Shown here: positions 1,750 to 27,994 of the stretch, one piece after another | Layout of the letters: every line of letters begins with the position of its first letter | Position numbering within the stretch: the stretch's first letter is position 1 | Origin: a virus | Reading direction: 5' to 3' (one strand) | DNA length: 64,000 nucleotides | Virus record (IMG/VR): IMGVR_UViG_3300028030_000007 | Location: 1-64,000 of that record | Program-made: the position numbers and the translations under genes | The notes under the pieces: generated by a model | Seen by the model: only the letters and a program-made list of their open reading frames with translations | Told to the model about the DNA's origin: nothing | The model's database searches: none

Positions 1750-1773
1750 TTTTTATTGTATGGTGTTGTAATT

Positions 1774-3492
1774 ATGCCGAAAGTAAAATTAACAAAGTTA
1801 GAAAAGCAGGCTAGAAGAGAGTCACAATCCATTAGAATGGCGTCAGCATACGGTGGTAATGGCGCTTTCGGCGGGTCCGGGGCTGACATAGCTACGGGAA
1901 ACTCTTCATTTTACAGCCCCCAGCTTTCAACAGATTTTCTTGAGCTTCCTCAATCAGAAAGAGAAAAAAGGGAGCTTTTTAGATTTTGGTATACTAGACA
2001 TCCGATTGTCGGTGCTGCAATAGACTTTCACACTGACGTTCCGATGTCCAAGGTTCGTCTTTCACTTCCAAAGGGGAAAGACGAAAAACGAAATAAAGAA
2101 ATTCTAGCATTCTTCCAAAGAATGAGCGATAGAGTTAACTTGTTTCAATCATTGTATGACATAACTCACGAATACTGGCTTCATGGAAATGTGTTTATAT
2201 TCTGTGAAGACCACGACTTGTCTGATGATATTCCTGAAGAGTTTTTATATGATTACGAGGAAGAACAGGTCGGTGAGCTTGAATATGACGGTAATGAGAT
2301 AAAGAAAACAGTAATGAATAAGGTTCCTAAATCCAAGGAACAAAAAGAAGAACTAATTAGAAAATACGTACAAAAGAAATATGACGGATATCAAAGAATA
2401 CAAATACTGCCTCCAGAGCAAATAAAAATAGAGACGTATCAGTATACAAATCGCATAAAGATGGAACTCATTCCGTCAGAAAAGGATAAAAGCGCGATCA
2501 TAGAGGCTCAGGATGGCAATGCACAATCTGCTAGAATAGCGGACGATATACCGAATGAAATAAGAAAATCTCTGATCGAGGGAGGATCAATTCCCCTTAA
2601 TACAAGCCCGTATGATGATTTCCTCTGTTCTTCATTCTGTTATCATCTTTCACACAAAAGATCCCCGTACGATGAACGTGGGATCTCGATTTTAGAAAGA
2701 TGTCTGACAACGCTACTTTATCAAGATAAACTTCGTCAGGCTCAGACATCTATCGCTTCGAGGGCCATGACTCCGAAACGTGTGATCTGGGCGGATAAAG
2801 CGTCTGTTATGGACGTTGAGGATCTACGCGCTCAAATCGATCAAGCGTTGATTGATCCTGACTATTCTATCATTACAAACTACGAAGTACACTGGGACGA
2901 AATTGGGTCAAGGGATCGTCTGTTGGACTTGGCGTCTGAATATGAATCAACAAACAAACTTCTGTATATCGGGCTAAGAATAACCGAGTCGATGCTTACC
3001 GGTGAGTCCACTTATACCGGGGAACGCATTCACTTGGATGTTATGAACACGATGTACTTGCTTTATAGAGAGCAAGTTGCTGGTTCATTTGTTGAGGAAA
3101 ATCTGTTCAAGCCGGTGGCGGAAAAGAAAGGATTTTGGGAGGAAGATGAATTCGGAAATAAGATCTTGCTCTATCCAAAACTTCAGTTTACACGTCTTGC
3201 GCTCCGTGACAATAGTGAGCTTTCTGATTATATGTTCAATTTGTATCAAAAAGGCTCACTACCTGTGGAGTATATTTATGAACTTCTTAACATAGATCCT
3301 GGTGATGCGCATGAACTATTGAAACGGGATTTGTTCACTGTTAAGGATAGCACGTTCAATGAGTTCTTGAGAAACGTCATGCAAGCCTCTGCTGCTGATA
3401 TCGCTCAAAATTCAAATATCAGTGAAGTTATATCAGAAAATAGCGGTCTTCAATACACGTCAACAGATAAAAAAGAAGAGAGTAGATTCTAG
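1774..3492 (+). CDS. Portal protein
   Basis: Dodecameric head-vertex ring through which DNA passes. The protein is 572 residues from the ATG at 1774; an upstream TTG at 1756 is in frame but no SD supports either. The stretch RHPIVGAAIDFHTDVP near residue 75 resembles the N-terminal part of many myovirus portals. The centre holds a long helical, charge-rich segment, and the region around residues 380-440 (LLYIGLRITESMLTGESTYT) looks like the portal crown/stem junction. Position directly after terL and upstream of the prohead protease supports the call. The acidic C-terminus (KKEESRF) is probably flexible. Confidence 0.88.
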   Translation: MPKVKLTKLEKQARRESQSIRMASAYGGNGAFGGSGADIATGNSSFYSPQLSTDFLELPQSEREKRELFRFWYTRHPIVGAAIDFHTDVPMSKVRLSLPKGKDEKRNKEILAFFQRMSDRVNLFQSLYDITHEYWLHGNVFIFCEDHDLSDDIPEEFLYDYEEEQVGELEYDGNEIKKTVMNKVPKSKEQKEELIRKYVQKKYDGYQRIQILPPEQIKIETYQYTNRIKMELIPSEKDKSAIIEAQDGNAQSARIADDIPNEIRKSLIEGGSIPLNTSPYDDFLCSSFCYHLSHKRSPYDERGISILERCLTTLLYQDKLRQAQTSIASRAMTPKRVIWADKASVMDVEDLRAQIDQALIDPDYSIITNYEVHWDEIGSRDRLLDLASEYESTNKLLYIGLRITESMLTGESTYTGERIHLDVMNTMYLLYREQVAGSFVEENLFKPVAEKKGFWEEDEFGNKILLYPKLQFTRLALRDNSELSDYMFNLYQKGSLPVEYIYELLNIDPGDAHELLKRDLFTVKDSTFNEFLRNVMQASAADIAQNSNISEVISENSGLQYTSTDKKEESRF

Positions 3493-8674: not shown

Positions 8675-10264
8675 ATGGCTCACAAAAAATACGCACATGC
8701 AGTCCTGACAGATAAAGTATTTCCATTCGAAAAGTGGATGGATGAGATAGTAAGTCATAACGATACGTCAATACTGCATGATAACTCAAAATACAGGAGA
8801 GCCTCTAAAGTATTACAAAAGGTAGATCCGAGTAAGTATTTACTATCACATGCTACTATTATAGCATCGGTTGATACATATGCTCCTAAAAATGTTAAAT
8901 TAGGAAAACGTATGTATGCCGGTAATCAGATAAATGTTAAATATCCTGATTATAGAATGAAGCCATATGGATTTAAGATTATAAATAATAATGGTGACGC
9001 ATGGGAAAGATCATTACTACTCTCTACATATAGAACCTTCATTGGTGCTCCAAATTATCTTGAACATGTTCAAATACCGGATTTATCAAAGGGCTTTATA
9101 ATTGATGCTGTAGCTAGAGATCTCGGTGAATCGTGTTATATTGACATTTTAGTGGCCACTGATAAAAAGCACTCAAAATTAGTTACTGACATTGAAAATG
9201 ATGTTATCACCGGTCTTTCAATGGGCTGCATATCACAGTTCACTATATGTACGAAATGTGGAAATGTTGCTTATGATGATTCACAACTCTGCTCTTGTAT
9301 TCAATATGAGGGTAAGGGAACGATGTTCACAGATGAAAATGGAGATGAGCACCCGATCTGTGAGCTAGTAGGACACGTTAGTGATCCAACGTCAAATCAG
9401 TTTATTGAGGCTTCGTGGGTACATTCACCGGCATTCGCTGGAGCTGTAAAAAGAAACATACTAAATTATGATATTAAAGAAGTAACCAATAAGATGGCGA
9501 CAGCGGTTGAAAACAGTTCTGGCATTTTCATTGATGGGAAAATGAAAAAAGTCGCTGCCGATGAAGATGCTGCCGATGAACCGGCACCGGCACCGGAACC
9601 GGAATCGGATGGACCTAGCATGCCTGGTCTCGATGGACCTGGTAGTTTATTAGGTGGTCCTGGTGGATCCGATGATGAACCTGACGACAAACAAGAAGAT
9701 GATAAAGAAGGTGGGATCGTACTGGATTCTATTGATGATATTAAAAAAGAAATACTAAATATGGTTAGAAAAGAGATTAAGAGGGAACTATCATCTCTTA
9801 ATATAAATGAAATAGATACAGTAGATTTCGCAGAGGCTAACGTAACAAATTCACACGGTGAAAAGAATAAGGGCAGTGAAGCTTCTGTAGATAAAGAAAA
9901 TAGTAATGTTCAGCACGCATTCATTGAAAATGTTAAATCTAAGATTAAGGATCCGAGAATCGTTGATTGGACGGTAAAAATGTCCAGTCGATTAGCATCT
10001 AATAACCTATCAAACATAACTGATAAACATATACTATCATTTTCATTAATTAATGATGCTATATCAGGTAAAAAATATAATAAGAAATTATATAAGGTTA
10101 TGAATAAAGTAGGTAGGATTAGTAAATATAGTAGTAAAAAACAATTCTTAATGAAATGCGGATCTATTTTAAATAGGAAGATGACCCATGATGAAATGAA
10201 ATTTTTCATTGAGAAGGGTACTATATTAAATGATGTTTACAATGTTAAGAAACATAGTAAATAA
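8675..10264 (+). CDS. Prohead maturation protease with fused acidic tail
   Basis: Probable serine protease that trims scaffold and head proteins during capsid maturation. The first 250 residues carry an S78-like arrangement: His131 in APNYLEHVQIPD before a beta-strand (GFIIDAVARDL), and Ser182 in the motif GLSMGC. A Cys cluster (CTKCG at 192-195, CSC at 206-208) directly after the Ser motif probably binds zinc. Residues 300-350 are a Pro/Asp/Glu-rich linker, and the C-terminal 180 residues are helical, as expected of a fused scaffold or core domain. Position upstream of the scaffold-like and capsid genes fits. The protease call rests on motif order, not an alignment. Confidence 0.72.
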   Translation: MAHKKYAHAVLTDKVFPFEKWMDEIVSHNDTSILHDNSKYRRASKVLQKVDPSKYLLSHATIIASVDTYAPKNVKLGKRMYAGNQINVKYPDYRMKPYGFKIINNNGDAWERSLLLSTYRTFIGAPNYLEHVQIPDLSKGFIIDAVARDLGESCYIDILVATDKKHSKLVTDIENDVITGLSMGCISQFTICTKCGNVAYDDSQLCSCIQYEGKGTMFTDENGDEHPICELVGHVSDPTSNQFIEASWVHSPAFAGAVKRNILNYDIKEVTNKMATAVENSSGIFIDGKMKKVAADEDAADEPAPAPEPESDGPSMPGLDGPGSLLGGPGGSDDEPDDKQEDDKEGGIVLDSIDDIKKEILNMVRKEIKRELSSLNINEIDTVDFAEANVTNSHGEKNKGSEASVDKENSNVQHAFIENVKSKIKDPRIVDWTVKMSSRLASNNLSNITDKHILSFSLINDAISGKKYNKKLYKVMNKVGRISKYSSKKQFLMKCGSILNRKMTHDEMKFFIEKGTILNDVYNVKKHSK

Positions 10265-12312: not shown

Positions 12313-13206
12313 ATGAGTCTTTTTGATTTCAATAAGTCCGTTGATCCCATTGCTGCCGAAAAGTTCTTCGGTGGGCTAGTCGGTAGTCCGCAAGGACGCA
12401 TGAGAATTGCGTCTGGCATGACCCAATCTCTCCGCGAGCGCAGAGATTATTCATCCGTTGGACGCCGAGCGTTCCTCGTCGAGCAGATTCCTGATGGAGT
12501 TCTGCCCTATTATGACAAGGATCCTGACGTCGTGGCCTACGTGGTTGGTGAAGAGGGTGACTCAATTACCGCTAAAGCTAAGCCTCGCCGCGTTACGTTC
12601 CCCCTGTTCGAGATTGCTGCTCTCGTCAAGACCCCGCTTTCTCAGGTCAAAGAGCGTCGTTATGACATGCTCAAGAGAATGCAGGACCTTGGCAAAGCCC
12701 AGATTCAAGCTGCTGAGGACGATCGAGTTTTCTCAATTATGGACGCTATCGCCCTTAATGGTTTCGACTCACTTCCCGGCCAGTTGAACGCTGACATTCC
12801 CGTCGCCGCTCCTCTTACTTCAGAGGTCTTGGCTGATGCTTTCGCTCAGATCGACCGCCATGACTTGAGGACGTCAAACGTCTTCATGAACGCTGTTGAC
12901 TACGCCGACCTTCGTAAGTTCGGTCGAGAGGTCTTGGACATCGAGTCACAGGCCACTCTCTGGAAGACGGGCGTGATGGCTTCTGGCTGGAATGCCAAGT
13001 TCATCGTTTCACGCCTTGTCCCGCCAGGCGTCGTTTACGTCACTGGTGAGCCTGAGCATTTCGGTCGTATTCCGGTCCGAACCGAGCTTACCGTCATCTC
13101 CGCTGACAACCCCGAAGAGCGAACCATCGGTTTCTCGATGTTTGAGCAGCTCGGAATCGGTGCGTTCAACCCGCGTGCTCTCGTCCGCATCCTGATCGCT
13201 CGATAA
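12313..13206 (+). CDS. Major capsid protein (HK97 fold)
   Basis: A 297-residue shell protein. The N-terminal arm (FFGGLVGSPQGRMRIASG) is followed by a segment like the E-loop and spine helix (VEQIPDGVLPYYD, then LKRMQDLGKAQIQAAEDDRV). The P and A domains follow (VFMNAVDYADLRKFGREVLD; VVYVTGEPEHFGRIPVRTEL) and it ends ALVRILIAR. It is homologous along its length to the next gene. It shows the strongest codon optimisation in the window: I found no AUA isoleucine codon, although AUA is common elsewhere. The SD AAGGAA precedes the ATG. A large inverted repeat follows the stop. Confidence 0.9.
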   Translation: MSLFDFNKSVDPIAAEKFFGGLVGSPQGRMRIASGMTQSLRERRDYSSVGRRAFLVEQIPDGVLPYYDKDPDVVAYVVGEEGDSITAKAKPRRVTFPLFEIAALVKTPLSQVKERRYDMLKRMQDLGKAQIQAAEDDRVFSIMDAIALNGFDSLPGQLNADIPVAAPLTSEVLADAFAQIDRHDLRTSNVFMNAVDYADLRKFGREVLDIESQATLWKTGVMASGWNAKFIVSRLVPPGVVYVTGEPEHFGRIPVRTELTVISADNPEERTIGFSMFEQLGIGAFNPRALVRILIAR

Positions 13207-13228: not shown

Positions 13229-13268
13229 TTTTCATCCCCATCAGTCATAAGATTGGTGGGGATGAAAA
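13229..13268 (+). terminator. Strong hairpin after the major capsid gene
   Basis: TTTTCATCCCCA (13229-13240) pairs with TGGGGATGAAAA (13257-13268). The stem can extend by two more pairs inward, one of them G-U, leaving a 12-nt loop. No T-run follows, so it may protect the 3' end of the capsid message or reduce read-through into the paralogue rather than act as a full intrinsic terminator. It is arm P2 of the larger fold. Confidence 0.6.
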
Positions 13269-13316: not shown

Positions 13317-13340
13317 ATCGACATGCAGGAGACTACCATA

Positions 13341-14336
13341 ATGAATATCAAAAGAGTGATTAACTTTATCAAAAATGACAACACTATTGGTTATATAAAA
13401 AAGTTTTTATACTTAGTTGAAAACCTTGATAAGTTAGATAATGTATATAATAAACTAAAACAACAGGAGTGGATTGAATCATTTGATTTTAATAATTATG
13501 ATGAATCAAATGACGAGCAGTATATAATTGATTTTATTAATGGTAACATAAACGATAGAACCCATATTGCATCAAAAATAAATAAATTGATAAAGAATGA
13601 TGTAGGTGCTAGGTCATTAGCAAGAAATATTCTTTGTGTTGATCATATTCCCGATTATATAATTCCGATGTATTCAATAAATGAAAATGGAACTCCATAC
13701 GTAATAGGTGATGAGGATGGCATAACAAGAATAGACGCTGATAAAACTTTCACCGTTCCAATATTTGACATAACACATAATGTACATTCAAGCTCACGTA
13801 ATGTTAAGAGTGGTGTCTACAGCCTACTCAAAACAATGCGTAATTTATGCTCATCACAAATACTAGTGGCTGAGAGCATGCATTTGTTATCATTAATCAA
13901 TGCTTCTTATAATGATGACAATGAAAAAGTAAAAAATATCATGTCAATAAATGATAAACTTACACCTGATGTGATATCTGATGCATTTTCTATAATAGAG
14001 GATAATGATGTGGAGGTATCATCGATAATAATAAACCCTAATGATTATTCAGAAATAAGAAAATTTAATGGTGAAATTTTGGATACAGATTTTAATACAA
14101 ATAATGTTATTAAATCACGTATTTGGGGAGCGAACGTATTTGTTACAGGAATGGCAACCGCCGGGACCATTACGGTTCTTGGATCACCTAAGCATGTTGG
14201 TGCTATGCCAATTAGAACAGATATCACATCGTTACCCTATGATAACCCAGAACAGAGAAAAATTGGATTTAATACATTTGAGAATATCGGTATAATGTAT
14301 AATGGTCAAAAGAATACAGTTAGAATTACATTGTAA
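13341..14336 (+). CDS. Second capsid protein (diverged paralogue; probable vertex protein)
   Basis: A 331-residue protein, collinear with the major capsid protein from about residue 100 on. Matching pairs include VDHIPDYIIPMY with VEQIPDGVLPYY, DYSEIRKFNGEILD with DYADLRKFGREVLD, GSPKHVGAMPIRTDIT with GEPEHFGRIPVRTELT, and DNPEQRKIGFNTFENIGI with DNPEERTIGFSMFEQLGI. The N-terminal 95 residues are different, acidic and helical. Codon use is ordinary and AUA-rich, so it is made at much lower level. By analogy with T4 gp24 beside gp23 it probably forms the pentamers. The start is set by AGGAG (13327-13331) 9 bases before ATG 13341; an in-frame ATG at 13323 lies inside the RNA stem. Confidence 0.8.
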   Translation: MNIKRVINFIKNDNTIGYIKKFLYLVENLDKLDNVYNKLKQQEWIESFDFNNYDESNDEQYIIDFINGNINDRTHIASKINKLIKNDVGARSLARNILCVDHIPDYIIPMYSINENGTPYVIGDEDGITRIDADKTFTVPIFDITHNVHSSSRNVKSGVYSLLKTMRNLCSSQILVAESMHLLSLINASYNDDNEKVKNIMSINDKLTPDVISDAFSIIEDNDVEVSSIIINPNDYSEIRKFNGEILDTDFNTNNVIKSRIWGANVFVTGMATAGTITVLGSPKHVGAMPIRTDITSLPYDNPEQRKIGFNTFENIGIMYNGQKNTVRITL

Positions 14337-14843: not shown

Positions 14844-16178
14844 ATGAAAAAAGTTTTAATAGCTTTGATTTCAATACTTGCGATAGCTATCATATCATCA
14901 AAGTTATACTATAATAGTTTATTAACTAAGTATAACATAACATCGATTTATTTACTGTTAGACAAAACAATTTTAGTTCATAAAAATTCAGTCACAATAG
15001 GAAAAAATTTATTTAAATCATGTGACGCACACGTTAACGTAGAAACTAAAGACGTTGACGTGTACTGCAAATCAGGAGCTGTATACACTAACAGTAAAAT
15101 AAAATCTCATAGTCCCGGTAAGAGAAAGTGGAATATTAAGTCTGTATATGTCGAAAATGTTGTAGTAAATGGTAAGTATAGGGTCCATGGATTGTTAAAA
15201 TCTAACGGAACGTACATCGCAGTGTCTACTAAATACAGGGGCGCATCGTTATCATACGTGGTGAAATATAATAATGGTATGTACGTAATAAATCATGCCA
15301 ATTACAAAACTGTTGACTTACACAGTGTGATGGTAAAGGATGATGAAGTTAACATCGGAAAATTTAGTCTGTCGAATTCAATGTTATCATCAAAGAAATT
15401 TGAATACAATAACATACTCATAAAATCAACGAATAAGATTACTAGAATATCGTTTCCCATGAGTTTGTCACTGTCTATTGATGGGACGAAACTTGGATAT
15501 TTAACGTTAGAATCAAAGAGTAAACTTAGTTATAAATTAGACACTAATTGTAATAATCTGACAAAAATTGCCGATGATGTTAGATTAAAGAAAGTAAAGT
15601 TTGGAGGATCTTATCATTTATCGTTTTCATATGATAACGGAAAAACCCATTTTAGCATGAGACATTCCTGTTTTGTCAAGCATTTACCTAAAAGTATAAG
15701 ATCAGTCTTGCAATATAGAAGTAGAAATTGGGTTAGTATTACAAATATATCAGATTACATGATAGAAGCCATTATTCATCATGAGGATCCTGGATTTATG
15801 GTAAACAACGGATTTTCAATAGGGGCGATCCGAAATTCAATAAAATATGATTTAAAACATAAAGCTTTCAAAAAGGGGGCGAGCACAATAACTATGCAGC
15901 TCGCTAAGAATCTCTTTCTTAAAAAAGAAAAAACAATCATGAGAAAATATGATGAAATGTTATATACTATGATACTAAACAATGCATTAACTAAGAGATC
16001 TATAATGGAAATGTACATGAATAGCGTTGAATTTGGTCCAGGTATTTATGGAATAAATAAAACAGCGTTAAAAATGTTTGATACGACACCAGCAAACCTG
16101 ACTCAAGATCAGTCAGAGTACATAGCTCGCATTCATCCAAATCCTAAACTTTTTTCAAGAAAATACGTGAAGCCATGA
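14844..16178 (+). CDS. Membrane-anchored peptidoglycan glycosyltransferase (GT51)
   Basis: Polymerises lipid II into glycan strands, as MtgA and the glycosyltransferase domain of class A PBPs do. Residues 4-19 form a membrane anchor (VLIALISILAIAIISS), so the rest should face the periplasm or outside. Residues 30-290 are a beta-rich region of unknown family. Residues 305-440 carry the GT51 motifs in order: HEDPGFMVNNGF (catalytic Glu314; the usual His of EDxxFxxHxG is Asn), KGASTITMQLAKNLFL (344-359), RKYDE (Glu371) and YMNSVEFGPGIYG (391-403). There is no transpeptidase domain. The stop overlaps the next start (ATGA). A biosynthetic cell-wall enzyme is unusual in a phage, where lytic enzymes are expected. 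Confidence 0.85.
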   Translation: MKKVLIALISILAIAIISSKLYYNSLLTKYNITSIYLLLDKTILVHKNSVTIGKNLFKSCDAHVNVETKDVDVYCKSGAVYTNSKIKSHSPGKRKWNIKSVYVENVVVNGKYRVHGLLKSNGTYIAVSTKYRGASLSYVVKYNNGMYVINHANYKTVDLHSVMVKDDEVNIGKFSLSNSMLSSKKFEYNNILIKSTNKITRISFPMSLSLSIDGTKLGYLTLESKSKLSYKLDTNCNNLTKIADDVRLKKVKFGGSYHLSFSYDNGKTHFSMRHSCFVKHLPKSIRSVLQYRSRNWVSITNISDYMIEAIIHHEDPGFMVNNGFSIGAIRNSIKYDLKHKAFKKGASTITMQLAKNLFLKKEKTIMRKYDEMLYTMILNNALTKRSIMEMYMNSVEFGPGIYGINKTALKMFDTTPANLTQDQSEYIARIHPNPKLFSRKYVKP

Positions 16179-16732
16179 AAGTTTATTTTGTAGGAGCGCA
16201 TTCAACCGGTAAAACAACACTGGCTAGGTACGTGTCATCTAAGTATGATATGCCAATGCTCAATGAAGTAGCCAGAGTTGTGATGAATGAGATGGAACTG
16301 TCTATAGACCAACTTAGGTCAAACATAGACTTGATAAATAAGTATCAAAGTGAAGTATTTAAAAGACAGGTGCAGCAAGAAATAGGGCTTACAAATTTTG
16401 TGTCAGATAGATCGTTTGATAATATAGCATACTCAATAATGCACTCGACGATAACACAATCAATAATAAGGTCTGATGATTTTAAAGATTATATACATAC
16501 TATAAATAATAGTGATTCAATAATATTCTTCGTTAGACCTAGCAAAGCAACAATGAAAAACGATGGCGTGAGAGAAAATGTAGTATGGGACGACATTCTG
16601 ATGATTGACGCTTCAGTAAAAACCCTGATGGAAATTTACGGAGTTCAATATATTCAAATCAACACTCCAATTCTTCAAGAAAGGATAAAACTCGTTGAAA
16701 ACATAATCAAAATAACAAATAGAAATAATTGA
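16175..16732 (+). CDS. P-loop nucleotide kinase-like ATPase (AAA_28/NadR-like)
   Basis: A 185-residue P-loop protein. Walker A is GAHSTGKTTLA (residues 8-18). NEVAR (residues 31-35) and VSDRSFDNIAYS (around residues 75-86) match the pattern of the NadR-kinase/AAA_28 group, whose members phosphorylate nucleosides or nicotinamide riboside. The substrate cannot be read from the sequence. The start overlaps the GT51 stop (ATGA), so the two are translationally coupled, but no shared pathway is evident. Codon use is ordinary for the window. Confidence 0.72.
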   Translation: MKVYFVGAHSTGKTTLARYVSSKYDMPMLNEVARVVMNEMELSIDQLRSNIDLINKYQSEVFKRQVQQEIGLTNFVSDRSFDNIAYSIMHSTITQSIIRSDDFKDYIHTINNSDSIIFFVRPSKATMKNDGVRENVVWDDILMIDASVKTLMEIYGVQYIQINTPILQERIKLVENIIKITNRNN

Positions 16733-16781: not shown

Positions 16782-17747
16782 ATGAAAATCAACTGGCAAA
16801 AGAATAACTACCAAACCTTTTACGCGTACACAAAGATTTCCATCGGGTCGAAAGACTCTCCAATCATGTACATTGAGAGTGAGGACGAATTTGAGTTTGA
16901 TGGAACGACGTTAAGGTACTCAGGGGCTGAGATGAACAAACCGTCACTTCGTTCTGTTATTGAAAAGCGAGGATGGGCCGGAACTGAGCCAAATGGACAC
17001 GTCAAGCCATTCGTAGTGAACAGGAAGGTGGCAAAATCAAAGACCGTACGAACAAATATGGGAGCTACTGATATTGAAAAAGAAGATATAATGGTGGTTG
17101 AGGAAGACGATATTGCAATTTCTAGAGTGAAAAGCGGTGACGAAAGAATCGCTGATTCAATATCAACGACAGTCATGAGTAACAATGACCCGGTTTCCGA
17201 TGAGGGGATGGTCGTTGGGATGATTTCGTCATCGAACAATTCAGTCATAGATATGTCTTCTGGCCACGGAAATACTATCGAAACTCATAAACAAGTTCGG
17301 ATGGCCTCAGATACGTCAGGAGAGCAAAAGGCCAAGGGAGGGCAAAGAAGAGTAATTCGTGACGGTATGATCGTTGGAAGGATCTCTTCACCGACAAGAT
17401 TTACAACGGACATGTCAAAATCTAATCTTACCGCTAAAGCCGTTGAAAACACAGTTGGCACGGGTAGGGTTATTGTTGAAGAACAGCCAGAACGAATTGT
17501 GAAACCGGCGGCGAAAAAACCGGCAGCGAAAAAACCAGTAGCGAAGACTGGTTCGAAGGTTGAAATTGCCAAGTCCATTTACAGTGGATTCCCTGATAAG
17601 TGGAATCTGTTCGGGAAGAAAGACTGGAAGATCGAACAGATCAAAAATTACGGGGAGCACCCGGATTTCATTCGTGCTCTTTATGCTATAGAGTCCAAAT
17701 CTATGAAAAAATATCTAGTATCTAAATATCCTAACATTCTGAAGTAG
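16782..17747 (+). CDS. Uncharacterised modular protein with duplicated motif and AK-rich linker
   Basis: A 321-residue protein of unknown function. Residues 1-95 look like a small folded domain (beta-rich, ending VVNRKV). A polar middle holds a duplicated motif: GMVVGMISSSNNSVIDMS near residue 141 and GMIVGRISSPTRFTTDMS near residue 194. A Lys/Ala/Pro linker with PAAKKPAAKKPVAK follows near residue 245. The C-terminal 60 residues form a compact helical module (EIAKSIYSGFPDKWNLFGKK, then IRALYAIESKSMKKYL). It has its own promoter candidate and hairpins on both sides, so it may be a separate transcription unit. A virion role is likely but unproven. Confidence 0.58.
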   Translation: MKINWQKNNYQTFYAYTKISIGSKDSPIMYIESEDEFEFDGTTLRYSGAEMNKPSLRSVIEKRGWAGTEPNGHVKPFVVNRKVAKSKTVRTNMGATDIEKEDIMVVEEDDIAISRVKSGDERIADSISTTVMSNNDPVSDEGMVVGMISSSNNSVIDMSSGHGNTIETHKQVRMASDTSGEQKAKGGQRRVIRDGMIVGRISSPTRFTTDMSKSNLTAKAVENTVGTGRVIVEEQPERIVKPAAKKPAAKKPVAKTGSKVEIAKSIYSGFPDKWNLFGKKDWKIEQIKNYGEHPDFIRALYAIESKSMKKYLVSKYPNILK

Positions 17748-17881: not shown

Positions 17882-19639
17882 ATGTCCATTGGAAAAGGTT
17901 TCGTTCTTAATGATGCTGCCATTTATTCATTTGAAGATCAAGATGTATACGACGACATAGTATCATTTGCCGCAGCAATACCATATAATCTACGCCCCCT
18001 TTTCCTAATTCCGATAGAAGTAGAAATTGAATATGAGGACAATCCACCTAGTGGAGTAGCCTCAACGAAGGTAGCGTCTGACGCCGCTGATCTGTTTAGT
18101 TATAGAACGCTCGTAACAGATGAAGACGCAAATTCTAAGGGCGTGTCGAACGGAATTTCGTCACCGGATACCACTGAGGTTGACTACCCGGTGTATGAGA
18201 GTCTTGATGGTGATTTCGGGACGAATGATGACGGACCACTTTTTAACAGATCGATAGACCTGGACCTGGACGGAAGACAATGGGGTCCGAATACTGGGTA
18301 CATGTCTGACGTTGATATAACAGAAACATATGATGAAGGTTATCCATATAGATCAAAAAATTTACCATCGGGTTATGTACATCATTCATCGATACTTCCT
18401 GTATATATTGTTAAGCTCGCCGCCGGAGCTATGGACTTTGCTGAAAGAACCAACATAAGACAAAAGAAATATTCTGAGTGGTGTTTACCGAAGATTAGAT
18501 CATATGATTTAGCTTTACATACTATGACGTTTAATGTTAAGTGTTCAAATAGTAACAAATCTCATGAAGTAATAGTGGCACTAAATCCAAACAATGAAGT
18601 CGCGGTCAGGTGTGATTGCGAATTCTGGAGATATTCAGGCCCTGATTATCATGCTGCGATAATTGGATATCTTTATGGGAAACAGAGGTCTAATGGTTTG
18701 CAACCTAAGATAAGGGACAAGGAGCATAATAACTACCTGTGCAAGCATTCATACTCTGTGTTAAAAATATTGGATGACACTATTACAAGTGTCATGAAAC
18801 AATATAAAGACAATGGCATAGATTATGAGAAAAATTTTAATAATGCATTTCGTGATATCATAAATGGTGTTTATAATAATAAAAAGGAAGTTAGCCAGGA
18901 ACCATTTAGATGGGATAGTAGAAGCACGTCAATACGTTATAGTGAAAAGACGCTTGAAAGAGTGTTGAGTGCTGTAAGCATGTATGAAGAAGCGAATGAT
19001 AAAGATATAATAACAAAGTTCAATAACTTAATGAAACTAAAGGGTGTTGAAATCTTTAGTGGAATAAGTGACGCTAGACTCGATACAGCGGTAAGAGCGT
19101 TTCAAAAAATGAGTCAGATAATGAATAATTTGATAAAGGGGATAGAATACGTTGAGAGTAAATACGAAGAAATAAATAAAATGGCTGAAAAGGGTCAAAA
19201 GGTTATGCCGACTCAATTTTATGAATATGATATGTATAGAGAAAAAGCCGTCGAATTGAAGGATATACTAAAGGGTAGGATTGAAGTCGCTGATGAGATA
19301 ATAAAAATACTTAAATACATGAAGGGCATGAAACCTGGTGATTATGTAAGACAGGGTTTGATGGAGGAATACCTAGAAAAAGTTAAGCAGTATGATGATT
19401 CAATAGGATCCATGTCAGAGTTTTCTGATAGCCTGAATGATGATGGTCTTTATGGAAGTGAAGATATGGAAGAAAATACCGATCCATCAACTGGCGTTGA
19501 AATCGATGAAGAAGAGATTGACAATGATGTCGTTGAACTCGTTGAAGACGCTAATGAAGAAATAGAACAAGATAGCGATATAGACGAAATTTCAGATATG
19601 CTGGAAGACTTTGAGTTTGAAGACGAGGATGAGATATAA
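17882..19639 (+). CDS. SWIM-type zinc-finger protein
   Basis: A 585-residue protein. The clearest element is a SWIM zinc finger: C244 and C246 in VRCDCEFW, then C287 and H289 in YLCKHS (CxC...CxH with a 40-residue spacer). SWIM modules bind nucleic acid or proteins. The N-terminal 180 residues contain an acidic, disordered segment. The C-terminal half is helical (residues 380-510, AFQKMSQIMNNLIKGIEYVE and onward) and ends in a very acidic tail (DISDMLEDFEFEDEDEI-like). The spacing and zinc ligands are directly visible; the role is unknown. Given its place in the structural block it may be a packaged or head-associated protein. Confidence 0.68.
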   Translation: MSIGKGFVLNDAAIYSFEDQDVYDDIVSFAAAIPYNLRPLFLIPIEVEIEYEDNPPSGVASTKVASDAADLFSYRTLVTDEDANSKGVSNGISSPDTTEVDYPVYESLDGDFGTNDDGPLFNRSIDLDLDGRQWGPNTGYMSDVDITETYDEGYPYRSKNLPSGYVHHSSILPVYIVKLAAGAMDFAERTNIRQKKYSEWCLPKIRSYDLALHTMTFNVKCSNSNKSHEVIVALNPNNEVAVRCDCEFWRYSGPDYHAAIIGYLYGKQRSNGLQPKIRDKEHNNYLCKHSYSVLKILDDTITSVMKQYKDNGIDYEKNFNNAFRDIINGVYNNKKEVSQEPFRWDSRSTSIRYSEKTLERVLSAVSMYEEANDKDIITKFNNLMKLKGVEIFSGISDARLDTAVRAFQKMSQIMNNLIKGIEYVESKYEEINKMAEKGQKVMPTQFYEYDMYREKAVELKDILKGRIEVADEIIKILKYMKGMKPGDYVRQGLMEEYLEKVKQYDDSIGSMSEFSDSLNDDGLYGSEDMEENTDPSTGVEIDEEEIDNDVVELVEDANEEIEQDSDIDEISDMLEDFEFEDEDEI

Positions 19640-19642
19640 CAA

Positions 19643-19984
19643 CTATCCGTTTTTCTTCTTGTCTTCTTTCCTTAACCGATCTACATCTGACCAAGAATCA
19701 ACAACTTCCCCTTTATAATTTGGGATCAATCGCATTTTTCCGTGATTGTCTTTCTGTCTTCTAGCGGCAGCAGCATTTTTCCTTTTCATCTGGCTTTGAA
19801 TTCTACCAGCTTTAGTTTCCCATCCGGGACCCTTAAATACAATATTTGTAGCAGGTGAAAAAGTATATTTGCATGTGCCTCCGCACATTTCACATTTTAC
19901 AGTAAACTCTTCCCTGTCATTTATGGAGCATATACCGTCCTGCACATTACCGCAATCTTCACACACAAAGTTATAAGTCGGCAT
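19643..19984 (-). CDS. FmdB-like zinc-ribbon protein
   Basis: A 113-residue minus-strand protein. It begins MPTYNFVCEDCG and continues with KCEMCGGTCKYTFSP, giving two CxxC pairs in the FmdB-type zinc-ribbon arrangement. The rest is a basic, probably disordered tail (QMKRKNAAAARRQKDNHGK). A paralogue is encoded at 29554-30000 on the other strand. FmdB-type ribbons are small nucleic-acid or protein-binding modules with poorly known roles. The stop lies 3 bases from the SWIM gene stop (convergent). Confidence 0.78.
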   Translation of the reverse strand: MPTYNFVCEDCGNVQDGICSINDREEFTVKCEMCGGTCKYTFSPATNIVFKGPGWETKAGRIQSQMKRKNAAAARRQKDNHGKMRLIPNYKGEVVDSWSDVDRLRKEDKKKNG

Positions 19985-22865: not shown

Positions 22866-24119
22866 ATGCCCGCCCCAGAGGATAGAGTACCCAGAATAAT
22901 AAAGTATAAGCTTCAAGAGAGGTGGTCTACTCAGTATCCTCTTCCCCCAAAAGACGTTCAATACATACCGTGCTACGATCGTGGAAGGAATGACATTCGT
23001 TGGTCAAACCCGTCAGAGCTTGTGGGTAATGATGAGTTTGAAATAATCGGTGTTAATATTTACAGGTCATTTGATTCTTCTAGTGGACCATTCACTAGGC
23101 TTAATACTCATCCGGTTTCTTCACAATTTTGGAGAGATGACACAAAAATACGTGTTATTATAGATGAGGATGTGCATCATCATCTGCTTTCTAATGGTGA
23201 TGATGTACATGGTGATATTATACTACAAACGCAATATAAACCAATTTATATACATACTAGTCGTGATACACATGCTACGCTATATCATAACATAGATGTA
23301 AAAGTAAATAAAAAGAAGGTTCCCATATACTCTGTTGATAAAGTTAACGGTGTTATAACGTTGGATCGTACTTGGGTATTTGATGTTATATCACAATCAT
23401 TTGATAGATCAGATCTATCTAATTTAGATAGTGTTCCATTCACGATATCATACAAATATACTGAGAATGAACTTAATCAAAATATTTCACATAAATGTTT
23501 TTATAGAATAACAACGGTGGCTATGCATGACGGTGAACTCATTGAAACACCGATCGAGAGAGCTACGTCAACTAATAACGGTGAACTTGAAAGATTAGAT
23601 TATATCTGGGAAGAAGCCATACGACGAAATATGTGGATACTTTACCAGGGCGGTGAAAGAGTAAAACTTTTCATAAGAAAAACGACTGGCATCAAATGTA
23701 CATGTTATTCAGAAGAACATGGAAGAGCCAGAAATGACTGTCCAACTTGTTATGGGACCGGTTACGTCGGTGGGTATGAAGGGCCATTTGACATGATAAT
23801 CGCCCCTGATGACTCAGAAAAACAGATAGCACAATCTAACTTAGGGCTTTCTATGCACCACTCGTATGAGACATGGACAAGCCCATACCCAATGTTATCA
23901 CAACGAGATTTCATAGTAAAAAGAAACGGAGACAGGTATGGTATTGGTCCGGTTAGGATGCCGACCAATAGAGGAATGCAACTGCAACAGCATTTCACCG
24001 TTTCCCATTTAGACGATTCTGACGTGAGATATAACGTTCGAGTTGACGACTCAGACGTGATAGTTGATCCGACGATAAAAGATTCTACGACTCAAGAAAA
24101 TATAATGCGTTATTACTAA
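22866..24119 (+). CDS. Structural protein with zinc-binding CxC/CxxCxGxG motif
   Basis: A 417-residue beta-rich protein. Residues 45-120 look like a fibronectin-III type segment (EFEIIGVNIYRSFDSSSGPF). Residues 140-200 repeat the beta module also seen in the sheath and elsewhere (DVKVNKKKVPIYSVDKVNGV then a SYKYTENE end). A zinc site follows near residue 280: CTCYSEE, then CPTCYGTGYVGGYEG, resembling the DnaJ CxxCxGxG pattern. A related CxxCYGxGY motif is in the baseplate gene at 61815. It could be a head-tail joining or neck protein. The stop overlaps the minus-strand TilS stop by 4 bases. Confidence 0.6.
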   Translation: MPAPEDRVPRIIKYKLQERWSTQYPLPPKDVQYIPCYDRGRNDIRWSNPSELVGNDEFEIIGVNIYRSFDSSSGPFTRLNTHPVSSQFWRDDTKIRVIIDEDVHHHLLSNGDDVHGDIILQTQYKPIYIHTSRDTHATLYHNIDVKVNKKKVPIYSVDKVNGVITLDRTWVFDVISQSFDRSDLSNLDSVPFTISYKYTENELNQNISHKCFYRITTVAMHDGELIETPIERATSTNNGELERLDYIWEEAIRRNMWILYQGGERVKLFIRKTTGIKCTCYSEEHGRARNDCPTCYGTGYVGGYEGPFDMIIAPDDSEKQIAQSNLGLSMHHSYETWTSPYPMLSQRDFIVKRNGDRYGIGPVRMPTNRGMQLQQHFTVSHLDDSDVRYNVRVDDSDVIVDPTIKDSTTQENIMRYY

Positions 24120-24919
24120 CGCTTAATCATACCGCCGTATTTCACTACAAATCCACCAGGTAATTGAACGATAGCGGACTTTTTCTTATTTTTGATCACA
24201 TCGCTAATCGCTTCAATGTGGGATCTTTTGATTGAGTTTTCCATTTTATACTCAGACAGGTCGTCTGCTATGTTGCAAAGATGTTTTACGACCGATGGAG
24301 AGATCTCTTCAAGTTGTGGCAGAATACTATGTCTAATTCTAGACCTTAAGTACTTTTCATTGAAATTTGATGGATCGATAGCGTATTCAACGCCAACATC
24401 GTCTAAATATTTTTGAATTTGATCTTTTCTTAAGTGAAGGATCGGTCTGATGATCGTTATGTTTTCATCACTATTTTTATTCATGGGTGGCATGACTGAA
24501 AGACCGTTCGGACCGGATCCTCGAAGGATTCTCATGAGAACGGTTTCAGCCTTATCGTCGGCGTGATGTCCTAGAGCTAGTTTATTACGATCGTGTTGTT
24601 TGGCTATTTTGTATATTACCTTGTATCTTTCATCCCTAGCATTTTGCATAACATTTCTTGACCCATCAAAATGAATAGAAACACCGGTAAACATGAACCC
24701 GAATGATTTAGCTAATTTCCCTGCCAGTTTTACTTCATCTTTTGACTCTGGTCTTAGGTTATGATCTACTGATATTACGTGTACGTTTTTATAACCCAGT
24801 TTCCCTAAGGCATAGACTAAAAGTTGTGAATCCGGCCCGCCGGACGATCCAACAGCGAGTCTATCGTCTTCGTTAATTAAACCGTGTTTTTTGATGTATG
24901 ATGCGATTGATGATATCAT
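24116..24919 (-). CDS. tilS: tRNA(Ile)-lysidine synthetase
   Basis: Converts C34 of the CAU-anticodon isoleucine tRNA to lysidine so that it reads AUA. It has the PP-loop motif SSGGPDS (residues 25-31), VDHNLRPES (51-59), NVMQNARDERY, LGHHADDKAETVLMRILRGS and GLSMP-type continuation, IRPILHLRKDQI and DPSNFNEKYLRSRIRHSILP. All are core TilS signatures in the right order. At 267 residues it is the catalytic core without the long C-terminal domains of the E. coli enzyme. It is a lone minus-strand gene, stop-overlapping the gene on its left. Heavy AUA use in neighbouring genes gives an obvious benefit. The substrate tRNA is not in this window. Confidence 0.92.
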   Translation of the reverse strand: MISSIASYIKKHGLINEDDRLAVGSSGGPDSQLLVYALGKLGYKNVHVISVDHNLRPESKDEVKLAGKLAKSFGFMFTGVSIHFDGSRNVMQNARDERYKVIYKIAKQHDRNKLALGHHADDKAETVLMRILRGSGPNGLSVMPPMNKNSDENITIIRPILHLRKDQIQKYLDDVGVEYAIDPSNFNEKYLRSRIRHSILPQLEEISPSVVKHLCNIADDLSEYKMENSIKRSHIEAISDVIKNKKKSAIVQLPGGFVVKYGGMIKR

Positions 24920-26946: not shown

Positions 26947-26991
26947 CGTAGGCGGCTGTTGTATTGTATTGTTATTCAATGACCGCCTACG
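26947..26991 (+). terminator. Hairpin between coupled gene run and actin-like gene
   Basis: CGTAGGCGG (26947-26955) pairs exactly with CCGCCTACG (26983-26991). The 27-nt loop can form a smaller ATTG/CAAT stem. It starts 3 bases after the preceding stop. There is no T-run; GGAG of the next gene follows 9 bases later, so it may insulate or regulate that gene. Confidence 0.5.
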
Positions 26992-27010
26992 AAAGTATTT
27001 GGAGATACTA

Positions 27011-27994
27011 ATGGAACCTGGAGTTGGACTAGATTGTGGAACAATGAACTTTGTCTCTGCCAGAAGAAATGGCAAGAAGATATCTACATCGAGACTTCGG
27101 GATGTGTTCATTGATCTTCCTAAAGAAAATAAAAGGATGCTTAAACTATCAAAAACCTCATACATAGAGTATGACGGAAAATTGATAGTAATAGGTGATG
27201 AAGCTATACAAACGGCGAACTTGTTTAATAAAGAGGTTCGTCGTCCAATGAATAACGGAATAATTTCATCAGGAGAGATTGAAGCCAGAAGCGTCATGGC
27301 AATAATGATGAAACAGCTTCTAGGCGATCCGATAGCAGAGAATGAAAAATGTTGTTACTCTGTTCCGGCGAAGTCCATAGATAACAATTCTGACATTATC
27401 TATCATAGAGCGATGTTAGGAATGATACTCGAAGAAATAGGGTATGACCCTGAGCCAATAAATGAATCTCTGGCCGTTATCTATTCTGAGTGTGAAAAAG
27501 ATAACTTTTCAGGGATCGCGCTTTCATTTGGGTCCGGGATGACCAACGTTTGTATGTCGTATAATGCTATGAGCGCTATGGAGTTTTCCCTAGGTAGAGG
27601 CGGCGATTGGGTTGACAATGGAGCGGCGAAGGCTGTTGGAAGTACATCAGCTAAGATGTGCTCAATAAAAGAAAAGGGTGTGAATATTAAAGCACCTAGT
27701 AGTAGAAATGAAGAGGCCATAGCGCTTTATATAAGGGAACTCATCGATTATTCCATTAAGGGAATCATTAAAGAGTTTTCATCGAATGATAACATAATGA
27801 CGATCCCAACATCTATCCCGATCGTTATATCTGGTGGTACGTCACTCGCTGATGGTTTCGCTGATATGTTCACTGAGAGATTCGAAAAATTTAAGGATAA
27901 GTTTCCTGTTAGCGTGTCAAACATCAGGCAGGCTAAGGATCCACTTACTTCTGTCGCTAATGGTCTTTTGTTAATATCATCACTTGATGATTAA
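27011..27994 (+). CDS. Actin/MreB-like ATPase
   Basis: A 327-residue actin-fold ATPase that probably forms filaments. Phosphate-1 is VGLDCGTMN (residues 5-13). An MreB-like segment EVRRPMNNGIISSGEIEA spans 75-92 (MreB has RPMKDGVIAD here). NESLAVIYSE (151-160) matches the 'NEP' region, phosphate-2 is IALSFGSGMTNV (169-180), and the adenosine motif is IVISGGTSLADG (271-282). No membrane helix is seen. The start is ATG 27011 with GGAG 6 bases upstream; a longer frame from 26969 would run through the hairpin. ParM, Alp and MreB-type filaments can move or position DNA; whether this one segregates, positions or assembles phage particles is open. Confidence 0.82.
   Translation: MEPGVGLDCGTMNFVSARRNGKKISTSRLRDVFIDLPKENKRMLKLSKTSYIEYDGKLIVIGDEAIQTANLFNKEVRRPMNNGIISSGEIEARSVMAIMMKQLLGDPIAENEKCCYSVPAKSIDNNSDIIYHRAMLGMILEEIGYDPEPINESLAVIYSECEKDNFSGIALSFGSGMTNVCMSYNAMSAMEFSLGRGGDWVDNGAAKAVGSTSAKMCSIKEKGVNIKAPSSRNEEAIALYIRELIDYSIKGIIKEFSSNDNIMTIPTSIPIVISGGTSLADGFADMFTERFEKFKDKFPVSVSNIRQAKDPLTSVANGLLLISSLDD

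Follow-up and report, generated by a model that had tools for sequence, protein, structure and literature searches.

A GT51 peptidoglycan polymerase homolog encoded in the structural region of a huge-phage lineage

In the capsid and structural region of the window (the whole stretch of 64,000 nucleotides analyzed here, part of an 88,341-base IMG/VR record), we found a gene that very probably encodes a phage homolog of GT51 peptidoglycan polymerases and that, judging from its relatives, is conserved in a huge-phage lineage whose capsid protein is akin to the one in Bacillus phage G. The best reading is that the phage would produce it during infection as a periplasmic polymerase of lipid II, thereby preserving or extending the host's cell wall. 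GT51 enzymes, which polymerize lipid II at the outer face of the inner membrane, are well known, and it is their viral setting that is new; no report of GT51 in huge phages was found in the literature searched, which covered few subscription papers and preprints, so that earlier reports may exist.

Genomic context

The open reading frame begins with an ATG codon, encodes 444 amino acids and lies near several phage marker genes:

103-1749: terminase, phage marker near the GT51 gene
1756-3492: portal, phage marker near the GT51 gene
8675-10264: head-protease-like gene, phage marker near the GT51 gene
12313-13206, plus strand: major head protein 1 (phrog_2522, E = 5.7e-44)
13323-14336: second phrog_2522 major head protein (MCP2)
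14844-16178, plus strand: membrane-anchored GT51 peptidoglycan glycosyltransferase homolog, whole gene (open reading frame, PF00912, PDB matches by sequence and fold)
16175-16732, plus strand: AAA_28 P-loop NTPase, the next gene, with a 4-bp overlap (ATGA) with the GT51 stop
16782-17747, plus strand: orf16782, adjoins GT51 in relatives (synteny)
17882-19639, plus strand: orf17882, adjoins GT51 in relatives (synteny)
19643-19984, minus strand: zinc-ribbon gene, kept in most syntenic relatives

A preliminary description of this DNA had called the gene phage-encoded, and this is borne out by the terminase, portal, protease and capsid genes of the record, by the overlap with the next phage gene and by synteny in other huge phages. 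The GC content of the GT51 gene is 0.31, close to those of MCP2 (0.30) and the next gene (0.33), and the correlation of its codon use with that of pooled phage genes is 0.76. The signal of a promoter scan was no higher than in shuffled sequences, and a pattern search of the phage's own genome gave no match.

The two tandem head-protein genes differ strongly in GC content (0.54 for 12313-13206 and 0.30 for 13323-14336, in a window of 0.38), and the codon use of the first correlates with that of pooled phage genes at just 0.15. Between them lies a strong terminator-like hairpin with an 18-pair stem (13229-13268, plus strand). A TilS-like PP-loop ATPase gene at 24116-24919 on the minus strand (PF01171, E = 2.3e-45) is surrounded by plus-strand structural genes.

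Protein architecture

From N- to C-terminus, the encoded protein has a membrane anchor, a domain rich in beta-strands and the GT51 domain:

14847-14933, plus strand: N-terminal membrane helix (residues 2-30 in the model; hydrophobic residues 4-22)
14934-15698, plus strand: beta-rich N-domain (residues 31-285), a shortened AsmA/bridge-like domain (hhalign to the viral N-domain profile; model; weak TamB fold match)
15549-15551, plus strand: Cys236, one of two cysteines invariant in the viral family (alignment)
15669-15671, plus strand: Cys276, the second invariant cysteine (alignment)
15702-16157, plus strand: GT51 domain (residues 287-438; PF00912, E = 9.6e-43; model pLDDT mostly >85; PDB fold match)
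15783-15785, plus strand: catalytic Glu314 (motif I, EDPGF), invariant in 37 viral and 80 bacterial homologs
15804-15806, plus strand: Asn321 in place of the usual motif-I His (His in 37/37 viral and 75/80 bacterial homologs, Asn in five bacterial ones)
15954-15956, plus strand: catalytic Glu371 (motif III, RKYDE), invariant in 37 viral and 80 bacterial homologs

An HMM search and a structure prediction, both proposed in the preliminary description, agree on the GT51 domain (for structural background on GT51 see PMC6053601). PF00912 aligns with the catalytic residues at 146.1 bits against a curated cut-off of 27, and the predicted structure has a GT51 fold whose best match is 3nb6 (E = 2.1e-9, TM-score of 0.71 by target). 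The closest solved structures by sequence are likewise GT51 domains, headed by Aquifex aeolicus PBP1A (phmmer, E = 2.8e-19). PF00912 is the sole Pfam domain found in the window protein, with neither the transpeptidase PF00905 nor a direct AsmA or DUF748 match, and there was no match to lytic families.

Glu314 and Glu371 indeed sit where the preliminary description had placed them, and its further claim that all GT51 motifs are present needs only a partial correction: the D, F, T, Q, K, N and R residues of motifs I-III are conserved as well, but the motif-I His, which we take to be the position of E. coli PBP1b H240, is Asn321, the sole change among the residues checked, and the PF00912 profile is matched only up to position 158 of its 178, leaving the C-terminus trimmed. 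Polymerase activity of the window's own copy is likely, though less sure than that of the family, because this copy is both divergent and short, with the motif-I Asn and trimming of its N-domain and C-terminus.

Among known enzymes, the best NCBIfam match by E-value is MtgA (TIGR02070, E = 5.5e-42), which shares the N-terminal anchor, the GT51 domain and the lack of a transpeptidase; a motif IV of the NSVEFG type is presumably another common feature. Nevertheless, the window protein scores 143.8 bits against the TIGR02070 equivalog cut-off of 182.65 and differs from MtgA by an extra beta-rich domain of about 255 amino acids, by the motif-I Asn in place of His and by being encoded by a phage. 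Class A PBPs (PBP1a, PBP1b) have the same GT51 catalytic residues together with a transpeptidase domain that the window protein lacks. The architecture of the viral family is instead that of Myxococcota proteins (e.g., L067, L069 and L071) and Bacteroidota proteins in which an AsmA-like N-domain precedes GT51. These bacterial proteins are longer (about 650 to 840 amino acids compared to 444), and we found no function for them in the literature searched.

The anchor noted earlier is recovered as a single N-terminal membrane segment by hydrophobicity (residues 4-22, mean KD 2.33). The large extracytoplasmic domain behind it had been called novel; a beta-rich domain is present, but it is not wholly new, being AsmA/bridge-like and common to Myxococcota and Bacteroidota GT51 proteins. 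This kinship is clearest for the viral family, whose N-domain is homologous to those of the Myxococcota (hhalign, E = 4e-26) and Bacteroidota proteins (E = 1e-14). The window's own N-domain matches the viral N-domain profile weakly (hhalign, P = 1.7e-4, probability 49%) and, taken alone, has no significant match to the Myxococcota profile (P = 0.13). In the window model, the GT51 part is good, residues 23-155 are poor and the TamB fold match is weak. A full-length viral relative was modeled with a pLDDT of 86.5 and comprises a helix (6-39), a long run of beta-strands (43-334) and then GT51; beyond GT51, its fold matches are bridge-like or beta-taco proteins (LPD-3, E = 9.5e-7; LptD, probability 0.92-0.99) at low TM-scores.

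Cys236 and Cys276 align with a cysteine pair ahead of GT51 that is invariant in 28 aligned viral members, though with a different spacing to the GGST motif, and a disulfide between them is possible. This pair is found in most Myxococcota homologs but not in those of Bacteroidota, so that the viral family resembles the Myxococcota AsmA-GT51 proteins in this respect. Together with the AsmA-like domain, the cysteines give a hint that the host may have an outer membrane.

Distribution and synteny

A single-protein scan of viral contigs with the window protein found no relative, and alignment-based scans were therefore needed. Run on IMG/VR, these gave 36 and then 41 loci and, overall, GT51 relatives on 44 distinct other contigs of up to 619 kb, two of which were also reached via the MCP. 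The window's MCP family is present on 34 of these 44 contigs and in none of 14 control genomes, and ribosomal protein S7 shows the opposite distribution (0/28 tested GT51 contigs, 13/14 controls). Matches to the phrog_2 terminase, seen in 22 of the first 36, are weak evidence since 11 of the 14 control genomes have them too. On a related contig of 273,770 bases with a 74% identical MCP, a GT51 protein of 633 amino acids is encoded next to an Amidase_2 gene.

Among contigs of at least 150 kb selected by their MCP, nine of twelve carry GT51 (G002, G011, G012, G013, G015, G016, G023, G048 and G051), which is a lower bound because contigs may be incomplete. It is absent from the other three (G047, G049 and G050) and from the named MCP relatives LR745208 (485 kb), Tunturi_5 (309 kb, an Acidobacteriota isolate) and Bacillus phage G, so that GT51 is not essential to the lineage.

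Viral members share the layout of anchor, beta-rich N-domain and GT51 and are mostly 530 to 720 amino acids long, compared to the 444 of the window protein, to which they are 22% to 27% identical. Their GT51 domain is far better conserved than the N-domain, and a TM-like segment is found at the N-terminus in 31 of 35. None of 28 aligned members has a transpeptidase; besides PF00912, they gave single weak YdbH-like and LmeA-like matches. All 18 scanned proteins match phrog_33002, an unnamed PHROGs family, and a BFVD fold search returned nothing at E ≤ 0.001.

At 13 loci (L030-L038, L044, L048, L061 and L062), the GT51 gene adjoins homologs of orf16782 and orf17882, and the zinc-ribbon gene, orf20061 and orf20623 also have homologs in most of these loci, with the gene order of the window. 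The loci represent nine distinct arrangements, since L030 and L044 belong to one contig and the members of three further pairs (L033/L034, L037/L038 and L061/L062) duplicate or nearly duplicate each other. Where a locus extends to the MCP (L061 and L062), it lies on the other side of GT51. The GT51 gene is divergent from its neighbors in the syntenic loci, in contrast to its co-directional position in the window, and a second set of relatives (mostly 530 to 580 amino acids) has no such neighbors.

The window also encodes a Volactin-matching actin-like protein (26969-27994, plus strand; PF25216, E = 1.1e-80) that is present in 23 of 33 GT51-bearing records. As it is found in the GT51-less G047, G049, G050 and LR745208 as well, Volactin seems to belong to the core genes of the lineage and not to a GT51 module, and we rejected it as a GT51-specific partner. 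In a relative (L009, 3-1631), the portal homolog has an N-terminal stretch that, as a sequence impression, resembles a LAGLIDADG or intein insert.

Phylogeny and selection

In the phylogenetic tree, 29 viral rows group with four Myxococcota proteins (support 100/91), one of which (L071) has chromosomal-looking neighbors. The window protein sits on a long end branch (1.35) without a firm position, and AU tests neither reject nor prove its grouping with the viral members (p = 0.34). Monophyly of the viral members is shown neither by the tree nor by the AU tests. The one informative viral pair gave a dN/dS of 0.16 (NG86) or 0.10 (YN00), pointing to purifying selection in that pair. If the kinship to Myxococcota AsmA-GT51 proteins is any guide, it may be a pointer to donors or hosts.

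Proposed function

The sequence itself attests to a phage gene in a conserved slot, with a GT51 fold and its catalytic residues, an anchor and an N-domain of traceable kinship. On this basis, we propose that the product would sit in the host's inner membrane with most of its mass outside the cytoplasm; at the outer surface of that membrane, its C-terminal GT51 domain would join lipid II into glycan strands, with the beta-groove N-domain as a spacer or lipid-handling stalk. Such a wall polymerase of the phage's own could maintain or extend the host sacculus over a long infection that builds very large virions, so that the cell would not burst early. Cross-linking would have to come from the host since the phage protein has no transpeptidase. 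We give this reading as a whole (an inner-membrane GT51 lipid II polymerase with an N-domain stalk and a wall-keeping role in huge-phage infection) a probability of about one half.

Of the roles considered, we infer that the best fit is upkeep or extension of the wall over the course of a long infection. The host cell enlarges substantially in infections by phage Goslar (2026 jumbo-phage review, PMC13282480), an analogy that would fit a wall-extending role, though it is not specific to it. Our findings suggest that these huge phages might maintain or extend the wall of the infected cell besides breaking it at the end. It is a more tentative idea, and one that we would not yet favor, that the lineage routinely runs its own peptidoglycan-synthesis arm in which an AsmA-GT51 polymerase enlarges or stabilizes the cell for very large virions, which would mean viral control of wall growth beyond wall destruction alone.

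Phages are known for enzymes that degrade the cell wall, and their lytic transglycosylases and endolysins act on the same polymer during infection, though with folds unrelated to the window protein and by the opposite reaction. A conserved wall-synthesizing enzyme in the structural region of huge phages would be a different strategy. It would also be relevant to how cells stay alive and enlarge for long enough to make particles with genomes of several hundred kilobases.

An active polymerase could also serve a narrower use such as local wall repair after injection or a wall change that excludes other phages. The position of the gene in the capsid and structural region would allow co-expression with virion genes, but most relatives carry GT51 on the strand opposite its structural neighbors and neither a virion-targeting signal nor an exclusion partner was seen, which makes this use somewhat unlikely. 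Less probable still is that the window copy is divergent or decaying and polymerizes poorly, with the binding of lipid II or of host wall enzymes as its remaining activity, if it has any. Its motif-I Asn, shortened N-domain, trimmed C-terminus and long end branch would agree with decay; yet both glutamates and the other motif residues are kept at an identity to relatives of 22% to 27%, Asn replaces the motif-I His in five bacterial homologs as well, and the gene has an uninterrupted frame that is coupled to the following gene.

We consider it very unlikely that the protein works mainly through its N-domain, as a carrier of lipids or lipid II across the periplasm for which GT51 is an anchor or sensor: the N-domain of the full-length relative does match bridge-like or beta-taco lipid carriers, but these matches have low TM-scores, GT51 is far better conserved and the window protein has kept it while losing much of the N-domain. 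Finally, bacterial contamination or an assembly chimera, as might be suspected since most inspected INPHARED GT51 matches resemble bacterial DNA or host flanks, is so improbable that we reject it in light of the 4-bp overlap with the next phage gene, the low GC shared with neighbors, the same slot in independent assemblies and the 34 contigs with the same MCP.

The inspected INPHARED matches themselves were discarded as phage precedents for a GT51 polymerase, including those of MaAM05 (with gatD and glyS as neighbors), MW462191 (a PBP outside the head genes) and a PBP1c at a record end. Microcystis phage MaAM05 (MW495066.1; L003) is labeled a jumbo phage, but the stretch seen has a bacterial rather than a phage appearance, with secF, gatD, glyS, engB, fabI and a transpeptidase-bearing class A PBP.
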